From Pseudarthrobacter defluvii (GTDB lineage Bacteria; Actinomycetota; Actinomycetes; Actinomycetales; Micrococcaceae), in NCBI RefSeq assembly GCF_030323865.1, contig NZ_CP066362.1:3100001-3164000 (forward strand): DNA of 64,000 nt. The letters are read 5' to 3'. Numbering within the stretch: position 1 is the stretch's first letter; every line of letters starts with the position of its first letter. Below, in pieces: positions 4,778 through 54,661 of the stretch. Position numbers and translations under genes: made by a program. Under the pieces are notes generated by a model. The model searched no databases and was not told the origin of the DNA. It saw only the letters and a list, made by a program, of their open reading frames with translations.

Positions 4778-5761
4778 TCAGCTCCGTCCTCTGGCGCCCA
4801 GCAGATGCCGCCGCGAACCGTTGCCCGCGGAAGCCGGAACATCAGGCTCCGGTGCAGCGGATCTGTCCCCGTAGTGCCGCAGGAACAGCTCCTCCAGGGA
4901 CGGCGGAACAATCGTCAGGCCCTGCACCCCCAGGGCGCCCAGCGCCGGAAGCACCTCGGCGATCCGGTCCGAGTCGGCGCTGAACCGGACCCGTCCGGCG
5001 TCGACCGCCAGGTCATGCACCGCGCCCAGCCGGGCCAAGGCCTCTGGATCCACCCCGTCCGCGGCGAAGGAAACCTCGGTCCTGGTGAGGTGCCGCAGGG
5101 AGTCAAGCGTGCCGCCGTCGACAATTTTGCCGGCACGAATGATGCTGACGCGGTGGCACAGCACCTCCACCTCAGAGAGGATATGGCTGGACAGCAGCAC
5201 CGTTGCCCCGCGGTCGACGGCGGCCAGCAGCTCCCTGCGGAAGACCTCCTCCATGAGCGGGTCAAGGCCGCTGGTGGGCTCGTCCAGCAGGTAGAGCTCG
5301 GCCTCGGTGGCGAGGGCGGCGATCAGGGCGACTTTTTGCCGGTTGCCCTTGGAGTACGCGCGCCCCTTCCTGCCCGGATCGAAGTCGAACACCTGGCACA
5401 GCCGGTCCTTCCGGCGGCGGTACGCGTCCCCGTCTGCGGCGCCGCCCCGTAGCCGGGACAGCAGGTCGATGGTTTCGCCGCCGGAGAGGTTGGGCCAGAG
5501 CCGGACATCGCCGGGAACGTAGGCCAGCCGCCGGTGCAGCTCGGCAGCCTGGTTCCAGGGTTCGAGGCCCAGGACCGTGGCGGTGCCGGAGGTTGCCCTC
5601 GCCAGGCCAAGGAGGATCCGCAGGGTGGTGGATTTCCCGGCGCCGTTGGGGCCGAGGAACCCGTGGATTTCACCCCCCTGGACTTCGAGGTCGAGACCGT
5701 CCAGGGCCCTGACCCGGCCGAAGTGCTTGTGCAGGTTCGCTGTCTTGACAACGGTGTTCAT
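4778..5761 (-). CDS. ABC transporter ATP-binding protein (ABC-2 exporter)
   Basis: This 327-residue cytosolic ATPase powers the adjacent permease. Walker A is GPNGAGKST, the signature region is SKGNRQKVALIAAL, Walker B is LYLLDEPTSGLDP and the H-loop is SSHIL. A C-terminal extension of about 100 residues resembles the DUF4162-like tail of drug-export ATPases. I take the ATG at 5761. The alternative GTG at 5785 falls inside the operator palindrome and has no ribosome site. It is the first gene of the ATPase-permease-regulator-corA operon. Confidence 0.92.
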   Translation of the reverse strand: MNTVVKTANLHKHFGRVRALDGLDLEVQGGEIHGFLGPNGAGKSTTLRILLGLARATSGTATVLGLEPWNQAAELHRRLAYVPGDVRLWPNLSGGETIDLLSRLRGGAADGDAYRRRKDRLCQVFDFDPGRKGRAYSKGNRQKVALIAALATEAELYLLDEPTSGLDPLMEEVFRRELLAAVDRGATVLLSSHILSEVEVLCHRVSIIRAGKIVDGGTLDSLRHLTRTEVSFAADGVDPEALARLGAVHDLAVDAGRVRFSADSDRIAEVLPALGALGVQGLTIVPPSLEELFLRHYGDRSAAPEPDVPASAGNGSRRHLLGARGRS

Positions 5762-44923: not shown

Positions 44924-45840
44924 CGGAGGCTTCCTTCCGGGGCGGCCGGGTCCGCGGGGCGGATGCCGGCGGACCGCTGCTGGGTGAGGCGGACAATGAG
45001 CTGCTGCAGGGAGACGGGGGCCAGTTCGAGGCCGTCCGCCGCGAGCGTGGCGCTTTCGGTTGCATCCAAGTGGCCAAGGAAGGTCACGGAGGCGACCCGG
45101 CCCAGACTCTCGCGGTGGATGACTTCGCGTCCGCCAACTGCCCGATCGACCGCGCCCGCATCACCCACGACGTTGGTGGCCATGGCACGGGCGCCCTCGG
45201 CTGATTGGTCCATGATGATGCGGCCCGCGTCAATAAGGAGCACGCGTTCGATGAGGTTTGATACCTCGTCGATGAGGTGGCTGGAGAGGAGGATGGTCCG
45301 GGGGTGCTCCGCGTAGTCAGCCAGCAGACGGTCGTAGAACGTCTGCCGCGCTACGGCGTCCAGCCCCAGGTACGGCTCGTCGAAAAAGGTAATTTCCGCA
45401 CGGGAGGCAAGCCCGATGATGACGCCGACGGCGGAGAGCTGCCCGCGCGACAGCTTCTTGATGGTCCGTTTCAGGGGCAGCTGGAAGTCGTCAATGAGTT
45501 CGTCCGCCAAGCCCTGGTCCCAGTTGGGGAAGAAGAGCCGCGCCGCTGCGAGGGCGTGGCGCGCGGAGGCATCGTCCGGGTATTTTTGGCTCTCCCGGAC
45601 AAAGCACATCCGGCTCAGCACCCTCGGGTTCTCATACGGGTTCTCGCCGAACACGCGAACTTCTCCACTGCTGGGGAAGTTCTGTGCCGTGAGGATGGAC
45701 ATGGCGGTGGTTTTGCCGGCGCCGTTGCGGCCCAGGAGCCCGTAGATGGCGTTCTGCTCAATGTCGAAGCTCACATTGTCCAGCGCGAGTGCGTCCTTGT
45801 AGCTCTTGGTGAGGTTCCGAACCTCGATTACGGCGCTCAT
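44920..45840 (-). CDS. ABC transporter ATP-binding protein
   Basis: 306 residues. Walker A is LLGRNGAGKTTA, signature LSRGQLSAVGVIIGLAS (an LSRGQ variant), Walker B ITFFDEPYLGLD, H-loop SSHLIDEV. A C-terminal tail of about 80 residues follows. It overlaps the GntR gene start-stop by 4 bases and the permease by 4 bases, so the three genes form one operon. Confidence 0.92.
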   Translation of the reverse strand: MSAVIEVRNLTKSYKDALALDNVSFDIEQNAIYGLLGRNGAGKTTAMSILTAQNFPSSGEVRVFGENPYENPRVLSRMCFVRESQKYPDDASARHALAAARLFFPNWDQGLADELIDDFQLPLKRTIKKLSRGQLSAVGVIIGLASRAEITFFDEPYLGLDAVARQTFYDRLLADYAEHPRTILLSSHLIDEVSNLIERVLLIDAGRIIMDQSAEGARAMATNVVGDAGAVDRAVGGREVIHRESLGRVASVTFLGHLDATESATLAADGLELAPVSLQQLIVRLTQQRSAGIRPADPAAPEGSLR

Positions 45841-51264: not shown

Positions 51265-53700
51265 TTACCCCGCGCTGGACGTAGGCGCGGGCTCCAGGGT
51301 CTCCCCTCCCCCGTAATCCACAGTGGGTGCCGGCGTTGCGTAGTCAACGGACGACGTCGGTTGGCCGCCTCCCAGATCTGGCCCCGCCGGCGCCGTGGCC
51401 ACCCCAGTCGCAGCCGGTACAGGTGCAGGTGCAGGTGCAGACGGCCCATCCTGGGCAACGGACGAGGTGGGGCCAGGGGTCGGACCACCGCTGGGGCCAG
51501 CCGTAGCAGGGGACGTCGCCACGGAGGTCCCTCCGGAAACAGAAGAGCCTTTGACGATGGCCGTGATCTGCTCCTTGTACCCGTTGAGCGTGGCCTGGAT
51601 CTCGGACAGCGGAACGTTTTGTAGGTTCCGCCCATACTCCGCGATTTGGGCCCACAACGCCTCAAGCTGCTGCTTGCTGTCGCCGTCCAACGGCCCGTCG
51701 AGCGTGAGGACCAGCTGGCTGGCCAGGGCATAGGTGAGGCAGTCCAGGCAGTTGTAGTTGGCAGCCGCCGAAAGGTTCTGCGGCACGATCACGTCGGTCT
51801 GACCTACCACCAGGACCACCTGGAAGCCCACGGCCACTGCCGCGCAGCCCGAGCAGTTGGCGAAAGCGTATGCCTCGTTGGTGGTGGTGACCGGCTCCCC
51901 GCCGTCTGCCCAGACCAGGGCGAAGGCCACGCTGTACTTTACGGAGCCGTCGGTGGTGTTGACGGCGAGCGCCTGGTTTCCGTCGGCGGCCGGGGCGGCT
52001 GGCCTGTCGAACGGAAACACCCAGGAGGGAGCAGCAGCAGAAGTGGTGCTGCCGCCTGGCGAGGCACTGGCCGGCGATGCGTCGGCAGGCACCAGCACCA
52101 TGCTCAGCTGGGGATTGTCCCGCGTGGGTTTCACAGCATCCGCGGGCCACAGCGCAACAGTCTGCCCGGAAGCACCCTCCCGCAACGCCTCGCGCTCACG
52201 GTGGGGAAGGATGGCCCGCGTTGCATCACCCAGCGTCCCTCGTTCGTACGCCTGCACCGGGCGGTACGTCCCGCCGTCGGGCCACCATGCCCAAGCGAGC
52301 CCCGCCAGCAGGACTGCGACGGCGGTCATGGCGGCCGTCCGCTGCACCGCCTTGCCACTGGTTTTTTGCCACAGGCCCGTGACAAGCTGCCGCAGCAGCC
52401 GCACCACGATGTACAGCACGCCCAGCACCGGGACCGCCACCACAACAATGGCGAGGGCCCGAACGGCCACGCCCAGTAAGTCGCCGGAAGAAAGGCTCGC
52501 CGCCAGCGCTTCCTGCTGCTTGCCCACACTGGCCCAGCCGGTGGCCAGCAACCGTGGCAGGGACAGCACCATCATCACCATGCTGAATAGCAGCACCGGT
52601 ACGGTCACCAGCACCCAGACGGTAACCACGGCCCGCGCCCACGGCTTGAGCACCTTGCTTTCCGGGCTTCCCCACCGCCAGGGAAGGATTCCCAGGAGGG
52701 TTGGTTTGATGCGCTGGAACAGGTCGGGCACGCCGGTGGCGTCTGCCAGGATGTGGTAGCCGTCGTACTTGACCAGCGGGATGAGCTGGCGGACCATCTG
52801 CAGGATCTGCGTGACCACCACCAGCAGGAGCGCGTCGAAGCCGGTGGCCCACCACAGTCCCATGATGGCCACGGCCACGATGGCGTTGAAGTACAGCCCG
52901 CCCAGGTCGGTGCGGATCCGGCCGCCGCGGCCCAGGCGGTAGGAGTCGGTGACGTCCGTGAAGAAGGCTGGCCACAGCAGGTAGAGCCCGGCGCCTATGG
53001 CCCCGGGTGTGGCTCCGCCCTTGCGGGTGGCGGCGGCATGGCCGAATTCATGGAAACCGGCTGACAGGATGGTGACGGCGAGGATCAGCAGCAGGAGGGC
53101 AGGCTGCTCGAAAGCCTCGTGGGTGGCTGAGCCGAGCCCTTTGACCATGAGCACCCACCAGCATGCAGCCAGGAACGCGGCCGTCACGGCCACCACGATC
53201 AGTGGGTGGAACAGCACCGCGAACGGTGCGGTGATCCTGCGGGTACGGGCGGGGTCGGACACGATGTAGCGGAAGCGCAGGCCCAGGAGCGGGTTGGACT
53301 TCTTGACTTCCGGCTGCGTGCCGTCGGCAAGCCGGAGCAGGCCCAGGGGCAGCAGTTGCGAGTCCATCAGGGTACGGACGTTGTCAGCGCTGACCAGCCG
53401 CCCGGACCCTTCGCTGACGTGCCGGGCAATGCCGTCCAGGTCGCGGGTCCCGTCCGCCGCCTCCAGCACCAAGTACAGCAGCCGGGTCAGCTGGAGGGTC
53501 TGGCCGTCGGCTCGCCGCACCAGGGCGGGCGGTTCGCGGTAGCCCGACCCCTCCGCGGTGCCCAGGAGCTGGACGCCGTCGGCCCGGGCGGGCAGGTGGG
53601 CAGCAGCCGTCGACATCTTTCCCGACGGATCCGGGGCAACGGAGACGCGTGACGACGGCGGGCCCGCCTCGGGAGGCGGCCCGCCGTGGGTTTGGGTCAT
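51265..53700 (-). CDS. PqqD-like/M50 membrane metalloprotease with four-Cys C-terminal domain
   Basis: 811 residues, with an unusual architecture. An N-terminal soluble domain at about residues 45-128 (QLTRLLYLVLEAADGTRDLDGIA) resembles the PqqD winged-helix used to bind RiPP leader peptides. Several TM helices follow, with the zinc-protease motif AGFHEFGHAAA (HExxH at 217-221) and the third ligand region VKYDGYHIL (Asp313). After more helices comes a C-terminal exported part at about 560-720 with two CxxC pairs (Cys616/619 and Cys651/654) and a Pro/Ala/Thr-rich tail. It is most like the putative peptide zinc metalloproteases such as YydH. The partner gene just upstream is its probable substrate. 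Confidence 0.85.
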   Translation of the reverse strand: MTQTHGGPPPEAGPPSSRVSVAPDPSGKMSTAAAHLPARADGVQLLGTAEGSGYREPPALVRRADGQTLQLTRLLYLVLEAADGTRDLDGIARHVSEGSGRLVSADNVRTLMDSQLLPLGLLRLADGTQPEVKKSNPLLGLRFRYIVSDPARTRRITAPFAVLFHPLIVVAVTAAFLAACWWVLMVKGLGSATHEAFEQPALLLLILAVTILSAGFHEFGHAAATRKGGATPGAIGAGLYLLWPAFFTDVTDSYRLGRGGRIRTDLGGLYFNAIVAVAIMGLWWATGFDALLLVVVTQILQMVRQLIPLVKYDGYHILADATGVPDLFQRIKPTLLGILPWRWGSPESKVLKPWARAVVTVWVLVTVPVLLFSMVMMVLSLPRLLATGWASVGKQQEALAASLSSGDLLGVAVRALAIVVVAVPVLGVLYIVVRLLRQLVTGLWQKTSGKAVQRTAAMTAVAVLLAGLAWAWWPDGGTYRPVQAYERGTLGDATRAILPHREREALREGASGQTVALWPADAVKPTRDNPQLSMVLVPADASPASASPGGSTTSAAAPSWVFPFDRPAAPAADGNQALAVNTTDGSVKYSVAFALVWADGGEPVTTTNEAYAFANCSGCAAVAVGFQVVLVVGQTDVIVPQNLSAAANYNCLDCLTYALASQLVLTLDGPLDGDSKQQLEALWAQIAEYGRNLQNVPLSEIQATLNGYKEQITAIVKGSSVSGGTSVATSPATAGPSGGPTPGPTSSVAQDGPSAPAPAPVPAATGVATAPAGPDLGGGQPTSSVDYATPAPTVDYGGGETLEPAPTSSAG

Positions 53701-53706
53701 GTCTGC

Positions 53707-54378
53707 TTACTGCTGCAGGTCGGACTGCTGGCCGGCGGTGGCATTTGCCTCGCCGTCGATGTGCTGCGAGATGGTGGCGCTCTGGTCCGAGATGGCATAG
53801 GCCTGGCTGTCGATGGAGCCGATGTTGGCGGCCACTGCGGCGTCGATGGGTGCAGCCACGTTGGCGTTCGCGGCCACGGCACCGTTGATGGGAGCGGCGA
53901 TGGCGGCATCGGCATCCAGGTTCACATCGACGTTCAGCAGGTTGCCGTTCAGCGCGCCGGCTGCGTCGGTCAGCCCTCCGGTACTGGTGGGATCTGACAC
54001 TGCGCCGGACGTTCCATCCGTGGTTCCGGCGTCGGCGCTACCCATATCGGTGGCGCCGTCGCCCTGGCCGATCAGGCTGTCCTGGGTGGAGTCGGCGTTG
54101 GCATCGGCGGTGATGCCCTGGTCGATGGCGGCGTCCTGGCTTGACAGCGCCTGCGCGTCCGAACCGTAGGAGAGGATGTTGGCCGAGGCGGCGGCATCAA
54201 TGGGTGCTGCCACATTGGCGTTGGCGGCGACAGCCAGGTCGATAGGTGCTGCGGCGTTGATGCCCAGGTCCAGGTCCGCGTTCAGGTCCAGGACGGACGC
54301 CACTTCCTTGTCCGGCAGGGCGGTGGCCTGTTCGGACATCAGTTCTTCATCGGTGAGGGGACGCATTTCGTTGTCCAT
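53707..54378 (-). CDS. Ala/Asn-rich duplicated protein, probable M50 protease substrate
   Basis: 223 residues with no cysteine and no hydrophobic signal. The first 40 residues (MRPLTDEELMSEQATALPDKEVASVLDLNADLDLG) have the look of a RiPP-type leader. Two repeat units follow: about 32-100 and 148-222. Both contain the identical 15-residue block AVAANANVAAPIDAA (49-63 and 167-181) and a shared pattern ending in an SQ/DQ-rich tail. Highly acidic, Ala/Asp/Asn-rich. The ATG at 54378 has GGAGG upstream, and the gene lies 6 bases from the M50 start, so they are co-transcribed. No homologous family known to me. Confidence 0.8.
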   Translation of the reverse strand: MDNEMRPLTDEELMSEQATALPDKEVASVLDLNADLDLGINAAAPIDLAVAANANVAAPIDAAASANILSYGSDAQALSSQDAAIDQGITADANADSTQDSLIGQGDGATDMGSADAGTTDGTSGAVSDPTSTGGLTDAAGALNGNLLNVDVNLDADAAIAAPINGAVAANANVAAPIDAAVAANIGSIDSQAYAISDQSATISQHIDGEANATAGQQSDLQQ

Positions 54379-54508: not shown

Positions 54509-54661
54509 TCACTCTCTGCGGGCGGAGGCACCGCCCCAGTACTGATAGCTGTCGTAGCAATTGCGGGAGCAAAATGCCGCAGTAGGAGATTCCGGCAGGG
54601 CCAGCCCGCAGTACCGGCACTTTGGCTTGGATCGCAGGATCTGCTTCACGATTCTCAGCAT
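54509..54661 (-). CDS. 50-aa zinc-binding protein
   Basis: A short gene with Cys pairs in KCRYCGLALP and AFCSRNCYDSYQYW, which could bind one zinc. It starts at ATG 54661 with a stop codon 2 codons upstream, so the start is fixed. The ribosome site is weak. It lies just upstream of the M50 substrate gene on the same strand, but the gap is 130 bases, so membership of the unit is uncertain. Confidence 0.55.
   Translation of the reverse strand: MLRIVKQILRSKPKCRYCGLALPESPTAAFCSRNCYDSYQYWGGASARRE

Follow-up and report, generated by a model that had tools for sequence, protein, structure and literature searches.

A putative precursor and RRE-M50 protease gene pair of Pseudarthrobacter defluvii as the fused form of a three-module actinobacterial system

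Introduction

Pseudarthrobacter defluvii carries, within a 64-kb stretch of contig NZ_CP066362.1 (positions 3,100,001 to 3,164,000; hereafter the window), a tight pair of genes encoding an intramembrane metalloprotease of the M50 type and a partner protein directly upstream of it. This gene pair is the Arthrobacter-type variant, with two modules fused, of a three-module system that is widespread in Actinobacteria: a peptide precursor, an M50 protease with an N-terminal recognition element of the kind found in pathways for ribosomally synthesized and post-translationally modified peptides (RiPPs), termed the RiPP recognition element (RRE), and a protein built on CxxC repeats. The three-module system occurs in several actinobacterial families. 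In the reading that we prefer, with a probability of about 0.5, the products are unmodified repeat peptides whose precursor is processed by the RRE-M50 protease and whose units assemble outside the cell with the related CxxC module. The first-pass annotation of the window had described a membrane M50 protease lying 6 bp after a 223-residue, Ala/Asp/Asn-rich partner, which is confirmed, and had proposed a two-component system of secreted peptides or surface proteins; this proposal is supported in part, with the revision that the pair represents a three-module system in fused form and is no two-gene oddity.

Conservation of the gene pair

The first-pass annotation had named a lack of conserved pairing in other genomes as one ground for refutation, and the pairing holds. 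Among the 39 genomes sampled, 25 of them from one genus, the full-length protease and the partner are both present in an identical set of 16, and the remaining 23 have neither, some of them holding weaker M50 relatives. The partner lies directly upstream of the protease in all 15 orthologous loci fetched, with a gap of 5–8 bp in 12 of them, 33 bp in locus L037 and 36 bp in L038; in L043 the called start of the protease falls inside the partner gene.

The partner, free of cysteine and acidic, is organized as one leader, two units and a variable linker between them (Table 1). The two units, NANVAAPIDAAASANILSYGS... and NANVAAPIDAAVAANIGSIDS..., are two copies of the core found in one class of small peptides of related loci (type 1, below), and the leader has its equivalent in small peptides of related loci as ELxxE..ELLPxRE or EELxxQ..EQLPDRE. 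The leader-like N-terminus noticed at first pass is an LPxRE-type leader that these small peptides share. In a codon comparison of nine orthologs, the leader and both units of close relatives differ almost solely by silent changes, whereas the linker varies freely: between L030 and the window, nonsynonymous codons number 0 in the leader, 2 in unit 1, 1 in unit 2, and 11 in the linker. Among the distant orthologs (L036, L040-L042), changes are found in every part of the partner. No Sec-type signal was seen on the partner when inspected by eye, and many NCBI records call it a 'peptidoglycan-binding protein', yet it has no Pfam domain.

Domains of the protease

Two folds are recognized in structure models of the protease. 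The N-terminal domain is modeled as a winged-helix leader-binding fold, which VIA-align matches to lasso B1 RREs, RREs of the TruD/LynD type, and PqqD, in agreement with the PqqD-like domain first suggested for this intramembrane protease. The core, with HExxH in a membrane helix and DG downstream, is modeled with the site-2 protease (S2P) fold and matches SpoIVFB, RseP, and the S2P of M. jannaschii. The Pfam model Peptidase_M50 (PF02163) matches none of the eight clade members scanned, although it does match the daptide-type proteins of the congeneric loci L048 and L050. The C-terminal tail carries two CxxC motifs, the second of which fits the unit N-x5-N-x2-C-x2-C..A-x-A-x-Q.

Table 1. Features of the gene pair, in window coordinates
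Feature	Position	Strand	Basis
M50-type protease of 811 residues, an intramembrane metalloprotease with an RRE and a fused CxxC tail	51265-53700	-	
Beta tail, predicted to be extracytoplasmic, residues 575-716, with homologs among the separate CxxC proteins of related loci	51553-51978	-	
Second CxxC, CLDC, residues 651-654, turn between predicted strands	51739-51750	-	
First CxxC, CSGC, residues 616-619, turn between predicted strands	51844-51855	-	
Site-2 protease core, residues 150-324, HEFGH 217-221, YDG about 311-313	52729-53253	-	structure model; VIA-align
RRE/PqqD-like leader-binding domain, residues 34-127	53320-53601	-	structure model; VIA-align
Gap of 6 bp from partner stop to protease start; tight gene pair	53701-53706	-	
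Partner (precursor) protein, 223 residues, Cys-free, acidic, Ala/Asp/Asn-rich	53707-54378	-	
Unit 2, residues 147-223, contains NANVAAPIDAAVAANIGSIDS	53710-53940	-	
Linker, variable, Gly/Thr/Asp, residues 106-146	53941-54063	-	site at which nonsynonymous changes of close orthologs are concentrated
Unit 1, residues 29-105, contains NANVAAPIDAAASANILSxGS	54064-54294	-	
Leader region, residues 1-28, EELxxEQxxxLPDKE	54295-54378	-	equivalent in small peptides of related loci; changes mostly silent

Small leader peptides beside M50 genes

A profile search of genome contigs, with a profile led by a paralog from a congener, gave 453 relatives, and the best 80 were fetched together with flanks of up to 8 kb each; because they were ranked by similarity to a paralog, frequencies among these 80 loci are not population estimates. 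Many of the loci hold short genes upstream of the M50 gene whose acidic leader ends in LPxRE, LPDRE, or LPxKE. A leader pattern, written after these loci had been viewed, finds 139 peptides in 70 of the 80, and an open reading frame (ORF) with the motif lies upstream on the M50 strand in 66 of 77 loci (L068, L111, and L126, with little upstream DNA, were left out). Counted per ORF, the motif is present in 115 of 614 upstream sense frames and 25 of 514 downstream sense frames, and in antisense frames at 2/646 and 1/511; many of the downstream matches, those in Sinomonas among them, are additional peptide genes, and several of the 11 motif-negative loci hold peptide genes on inspection.

A search with hidden Markov models (HMMs) places peptide genes near the M50 gene in 79 of the 80 loci, a count that is partly circular as the models were built from these same loci. 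Two held-out models were therefore compared, bearing in mind that held-out loci include close relatives of each other: the first, built on 17 peptides of six loci in metagenome-assembled genomes (MAGs) labeled Chloroflexi, recovers a gene adjacent to M50 on its upstream side in 62 of the 74 remaining loci, and the second, built on 20 peptides from ten loci of the Arthrobacter type, does so in 64 of 70, every match lying within about 3.3 kb of the M50 gene. In L070, L108, and L119 peptide copies lie on the opposite strand, and L126 cannot be judged because its contig begins just 138 bp before the M50 match.

These related loci encode one to about five small peptides, in some cases from two to four tandem upstream genes. 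The first-pass annotation had described a substrate larger than typical RiPPs; elsewhere the likely substrates are these small peptides, which have the ordinary size of RiPP precursors. One group of the small peptides shares the NANVAAP unit of the partner. Type 1 comprises 33 distinct cores from MAG contigs titled Frankiaceae, Acidimicrobiaceae, Thermoleophilaceae, other Actinobacteria, and Chloroflexi; an example is L110:1672-1905, LPDREQMSLINANLAAPINAAVAANVLSDGSLAYANAQQTAPISQ. Type 2 is the remainder, with 100 distinct cores of roughly the form LPxRETL..NxxxAxNAxSxxSxAxSxAxQ, and often occurs in unlike pairs, encoded upstream of an M50 protein that is fused to a ParA/MinD-like domain. This fusion is found in 40 of the 80 loci with a custom HMM; public models recognize the domain weakly (NF041546, 20.8 bits, E 2e-4; Pfam AAA_31, E 0.014). 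One small peptide matches 7808 protein clusters, and the protease is matched by 3426 of the 7995 candidates scored. No scanned protease (eight in Pfam, two in NCBIfam), small peptide (six and five), or CxxC protein (four and one) scored over a cut-off. A literature search over titles and abstract openings, with few subscription journals covered, gave no account of these peptides, the protease clade, or the CxxC proteins.

Several loci stand out individually. L052:8001-10526 encodes an RRE-M50-ParA/MinD-like fusion with the motif NPKGGAHKTT; such loci usually have two unlike upstream peptides and often a BTAD regulator. In Nocardioides, many loci (for example L074:7622-7834 (+)) have one peptide of the pair with Cys residues just past the leader (for example LPRRETMSCQIGCVNV), unlike most relatives. 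Contigs titled Chloroflexi (L109, L110, L111, L113, L124, and L128) hold the peptide-M50 system of actinobacterial MAGs, by either transfer or mislabeling of the MAGs.

The recurrence of small peptides with the same leader beside diverse M50 genes bears on another explanation. The usual substrates of site-2 proteases are anti-sigma factors or signal peptides, and the resemblance of the core to SpoIVFB and RseP would suit a regulatory protease with other membrane substrates, next to an independent surface or cytoplasmic partner that is merely co-transcribed. We regard this as improbable given the RRE-type leader-binding domain, the recurring peptides, and a presence pattern identical to that of the partner. 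Alternatively, the released peptides might be extracellular signals read by the BTAD/SARP regulator near many relatives: a BTAD-type regulator was clustered in 24 of the 80 loci, 1.4–3.6 kb upstream, and PF03704 is present in both of the two scanned. It was not clustered in the other 56, none was noticed among the window ORFs at 46-60 kb (no profile search was made), the products are large, acidic, and repeat-like, and the CxxC protein would have no obvious place, so that signaling appears very unlikely.

The CxxC module, separate and fused

Clustering of 1028 neighboring ORFs brought out CxxC proteins of secreted appearance in two sets, one from 9 loci and one from 13, which are homologous to each other (hhalign E 1.9e-20). 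With an HMM, the CxxC protein is separate in 54 of the 80 loci and fused in 4, a total of 58. In congeners, the tail of the window type is also found as a stand-alone protein, consisting of a membrane anchor or signal and the CxxC domain (L036:6761-7615 (+) and L047:7909-8616 (-)). One of these adjoins a peptide-M50 pair; no peptide gene was noticed near the other.

An M50 tree of 51 rows represents 40 of the 80 loci, 6 of the 15 orthologs, four daptide-type proteins, and the window protein. On it the fused proteins trace to one origin (100/100) and are joined (98/96) by 12 M50-only loci, of which 11 have a separate CxxC protein by HMM and 7 have type 1 peptides by pattern. The four daptide-type M50 proteins, which are congeneric, fall outside (100/100). 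The labels ParA-fused and M50-only need several changes on this tree, whose deeper branching is to be read with its midpoint rooting, long branches, and two rows of unusual composition in mind.

A repeat common to peptides and CxxC module

The peptide core and the CxxC repeat follow a common register, N-x3-A-x-N-x11-A-x-Q. In each of the four pairings of a peptide profile with a CxxC profile, the alignment falls in the same register, and column permutations reach the observed score in 0 of 300 trials for three pairings and in 7 of 300 for the fourth. When 14 CxxC proteins and 19 peptides are aligned separately, five residues conserved at the 85% level, N-A-N-A-Q at 0, 4, 6, 18, and 20, have equal spacing, which none of 20,000 shuffles attains; the controls of this comparison are permutations and shuffles and not unrelated Ala-rich secreted proteins. 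In type 1 peptides, SxxS occupies the place of CxxC in the secreted protein. A strict pattern for the unit is found in 27 of 33 type 1 and 31 of 100 type 2 peptides, in 9/9 and 5/13 of the two CxxC sets, and in the window tail, with no match among shuffles. The structure model puts CxxC in turns between strands, and the peptide core may therefore be one strand-turn-strand element, either a hairpin or a solenoid rung.

Comparison with known systems

Published systems are compared here as described in parts of the cited papers. The protease resembles MpaP/DapP of daptides (NF041824, PMC10036551), also of Actinomycetota, in that an RRE is fused N-terminally to a site-2 protease and that nearby genes encode short precursors whose leaders carry a conserved acidic motif. 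It differs in scoring below the cut-off of that model and in branching apart from the congeneric daptide-type proteins; further, the daptide precursor requires a C-terminal Thr (PMC10036551), whereas the window precursor ends in SDLQQ, and a CxxC module is present. Among the window ORFs at 46-60 kb and the recurrent clusters, no decarboxylase, aminotransferase, or methyltransferase was noticed (no profile scan was made). Separately, in the congeneric loci L048, L049, and L051, methyltransferase-like and ABC-transporter genes are neighbors of the M50 genes. L048 also has a YcaO protein recognized by Pfam, and L051 one judged by resemblance; the M50 protein of L048 scores over the daptide cut-off; an upstream ORF, L049:4427-4675 (+), ending LTIEELENLDTPDDTPWYIRVGDVIIIAGIVVGIAAT, is a likely precursor. 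These loci look like a daptide-related RiPP cluster.

The epipeptide protease YydH/EpeP/LiaK (NF058609, PMC10885120) is likewise an intramembrane M50 protease that matures peptides, and EpeP is thought to carry out both cleavage and export (PMC10885120). At first pass the protease was likened to the YydH class. The daptide model scores higher on the window protease, with 104.9 bits for NF041824 against 34.2 bits for NF058609; the two models differ in length, and their cut-offs of 300 and 225 bits are both missed. The daptide-type proteins of L048 and L050 score 377 and 405.5 with NF041824. Unlike epipeptide loci, the window has no radical SAM match: all seven matches of the genome (PF04055) lie outside it, in keeping with the first-pass annotation.

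Modification enzymes encoded elsewhere in the genome, those radical SAM proteins among them, could make this a conventional RiPP pathway, and the RRE is used by about half of prokaryotic RiPP classes (PMC10036551). As the window precursor is without Cys and no cluster of modification enzymes was noticed among the recurrent neighbors of the 80 loci (ORFs of at least 90 residues were clustered; no profile scan was made), we give this explanation little credence. A bacteriocin-like role is also unlikely, if less so: the M50 protease would mature and export unmodified antimicrobial or cannibalism peptides, and the unlike pairs would be two-peptide bacteriocins. The nearest characterized proteases, MpaP and EpeP, do mature bioactive peptides (PMC10036551, PMC10885120), and loci with M50-ParA fusions commonly hold peptides of paired types. 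Near the 80 loci, however, the same clustering gave no recurrent dedicated ABC transporter or immunity-like cluster, although small immunity proteins could be overlooked at that length. A neighbor cluster of ABC transporters in 13 loci was rejected, as it consists of mixed ABC ATPases at scattered distances and nearly all on the opposite strand. Also against bacteriocins, the repeat of the peptides occurs in a separate CxxC protein, the units are conserved within the genus, and the window partner is two units and a linker in one 223-residue acidic chain.

Among fibril systems, one parallel is Fap of Pseudomonas (FapB/FapC/FapD, PMC6173800), with its repeat subunits, second repeat-sharing protein, CxxC motif, and dedicated peptidase. 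FapB, an internal homolog of FapC, is the suggested nucleator, while secretion of FapC depends on the catalytic Cys of FapD, a C39-type peptidase (PMC6173800). Unlike the present system, Fap is Gram-negative and exports through Sec and FapF with a peptidase of the C39 type (PMC6173800). The chaplins and rodlins of Streptomyces (PMC5314377, PMC3079736) are likewise small secreted actinobacterial proteins that form surface fibrils, and two homologous rodlins are both needed (PMC5314377, PMC3079736). Neither the partner nor six peptides have a chaplin match in Pfam. Chaplins use an ordinary signal peptide and not an RRE-protease.

Proposed mechanism and its weighing

In the proposed mechanism, binding of the acidic leader of the partner (EELxxEQ..LPDKE) would fall to the RRE domain, and the M50 protease itself would remove the leader and help the remaining chain across the membrane; these roles of the RRE and the S2P core are suggested because of the daptide and epipeptide precedents (PMC10036551, PMC10885120). 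The released chain would consist of two strand-turn-strand-like units, whose counterparts in related loci are separate small peptides, one to about five per locus. Outside the cell, the units would assemble with the CxxC-repeat module, here the membrane-anchored tail of the protease itself and in other loci a separate secreted protein. This module, built on the common repeat, would seed or anchor a surface fiber or coat. A repeat subunit, a second protein with the repeat, and a protease together recall Fap, and extracellular assembly anchored by the CxxC tail is therefore favored, at about even odds, over toxin and signal. A bolder version, in which the loci form an undescribed extracellular fiber or coat pathway of Actinobacteria and perhaps their neighbors, with a leader-reading intramembrane protease that matures and exports unmodified strand-turn-strand peptides and these polymerizing on a membrane-anchored or secreted CxxC protein of the same repeat, SxxS in the subunit taking the place of CxxC in the anchor, is put forward tentatively, with the balance somewhat against it.

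The analysis shows the pairing, the common leader, the RRE and S2P folds, the CxxC protein in fused or separate form, the common repeat register, and selective constraint; leader binding, cleavage, export, unit shape, and assembly are inferred. Several observations weigh against extracellular assembly by this route. No recurrent exporter was noticed near the 80 loci in the neighbor clustering described above, and 22 of them have no CxxC protein within the fetched flanking DNA. The similarity of peptides to CxxC proteins is short and of low complexity: hhalign probabilities between their profiles are just 1-45%, and at a conservation level of 100% three positions match, which 16 of 3000 shuffles equal. 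The window partner itself does not match the unit pattern, since in both units Asp replaces the first Asn and Ser replaces the Ala before the last Gln, and its case therefore rests on the alignment with small peptides. Structure prediction of both proteins, called for at first pass, yielded models of the protease domains, but the AlphaFold2 model of the partner (predicted local distance difference test, pLDDT, 50) is helical and not beta, and was set aside because of its low confidence.

The likeness to Fap has points against it as well. The CxxC of FapC lies outside the fiber core (PMC6173800). FapC ranks first in a Foldseek search with the M50 model, but weakly (E 1.2e-3, probability 0.85, TM to target 0.22, root-mean-square deviation 14.8), the matches after it, all with E >0.3, being largely beta-helical proteins such as SufB/SufD, and it is absent among the 50 VIA-align matches listed. 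PDB sequence searches gave no similarity to Fap and no amyloid chains, and no amyloid family of Pfam matches the partner, six peptides, or three CxxC proteins.

Genomic surroundings of the pair

The pair stands alone, as its flanking genes are convergent on one side, an Lrp-type regulator, and divergent on the other, a cation exchanger (names from reading the translations only). Just upstream of the partner, at 54509-54661 (-), lies a 50-residue ORF whose four Cys are arranged much as in a zinc ribbon (CRYCG..CSRNC), and which has no tblastn match in the 22 loci compared. A promoter scan found nothing. Of two ABC ATPases in the window, at 5270-5704 and 45373-45783, the second, about 5.5 kb from the pair, was judged unrelated because of its position. 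PADLOC anti-phage defense models gave no match for four proteins at E 0.01, and Pfam, PADLOC, and PDB sequence searches with the window proteins gave nothing usable.

Implications

The system would bear on whether M50 proteases of the EpeP type export their peptides themselves, a point left open in the part of PMC10885120 drawn on here. If extracellular assembly with the CxxC module holds, the cultivable Pseudarthrobacter would offer a two-gene test case, and if the fiber or coat pathway is real, soil Actinobacteria would build surface structures by RiPP-type leader recognition and site-2 proteolysis, and not use these for natural-product chemistry.

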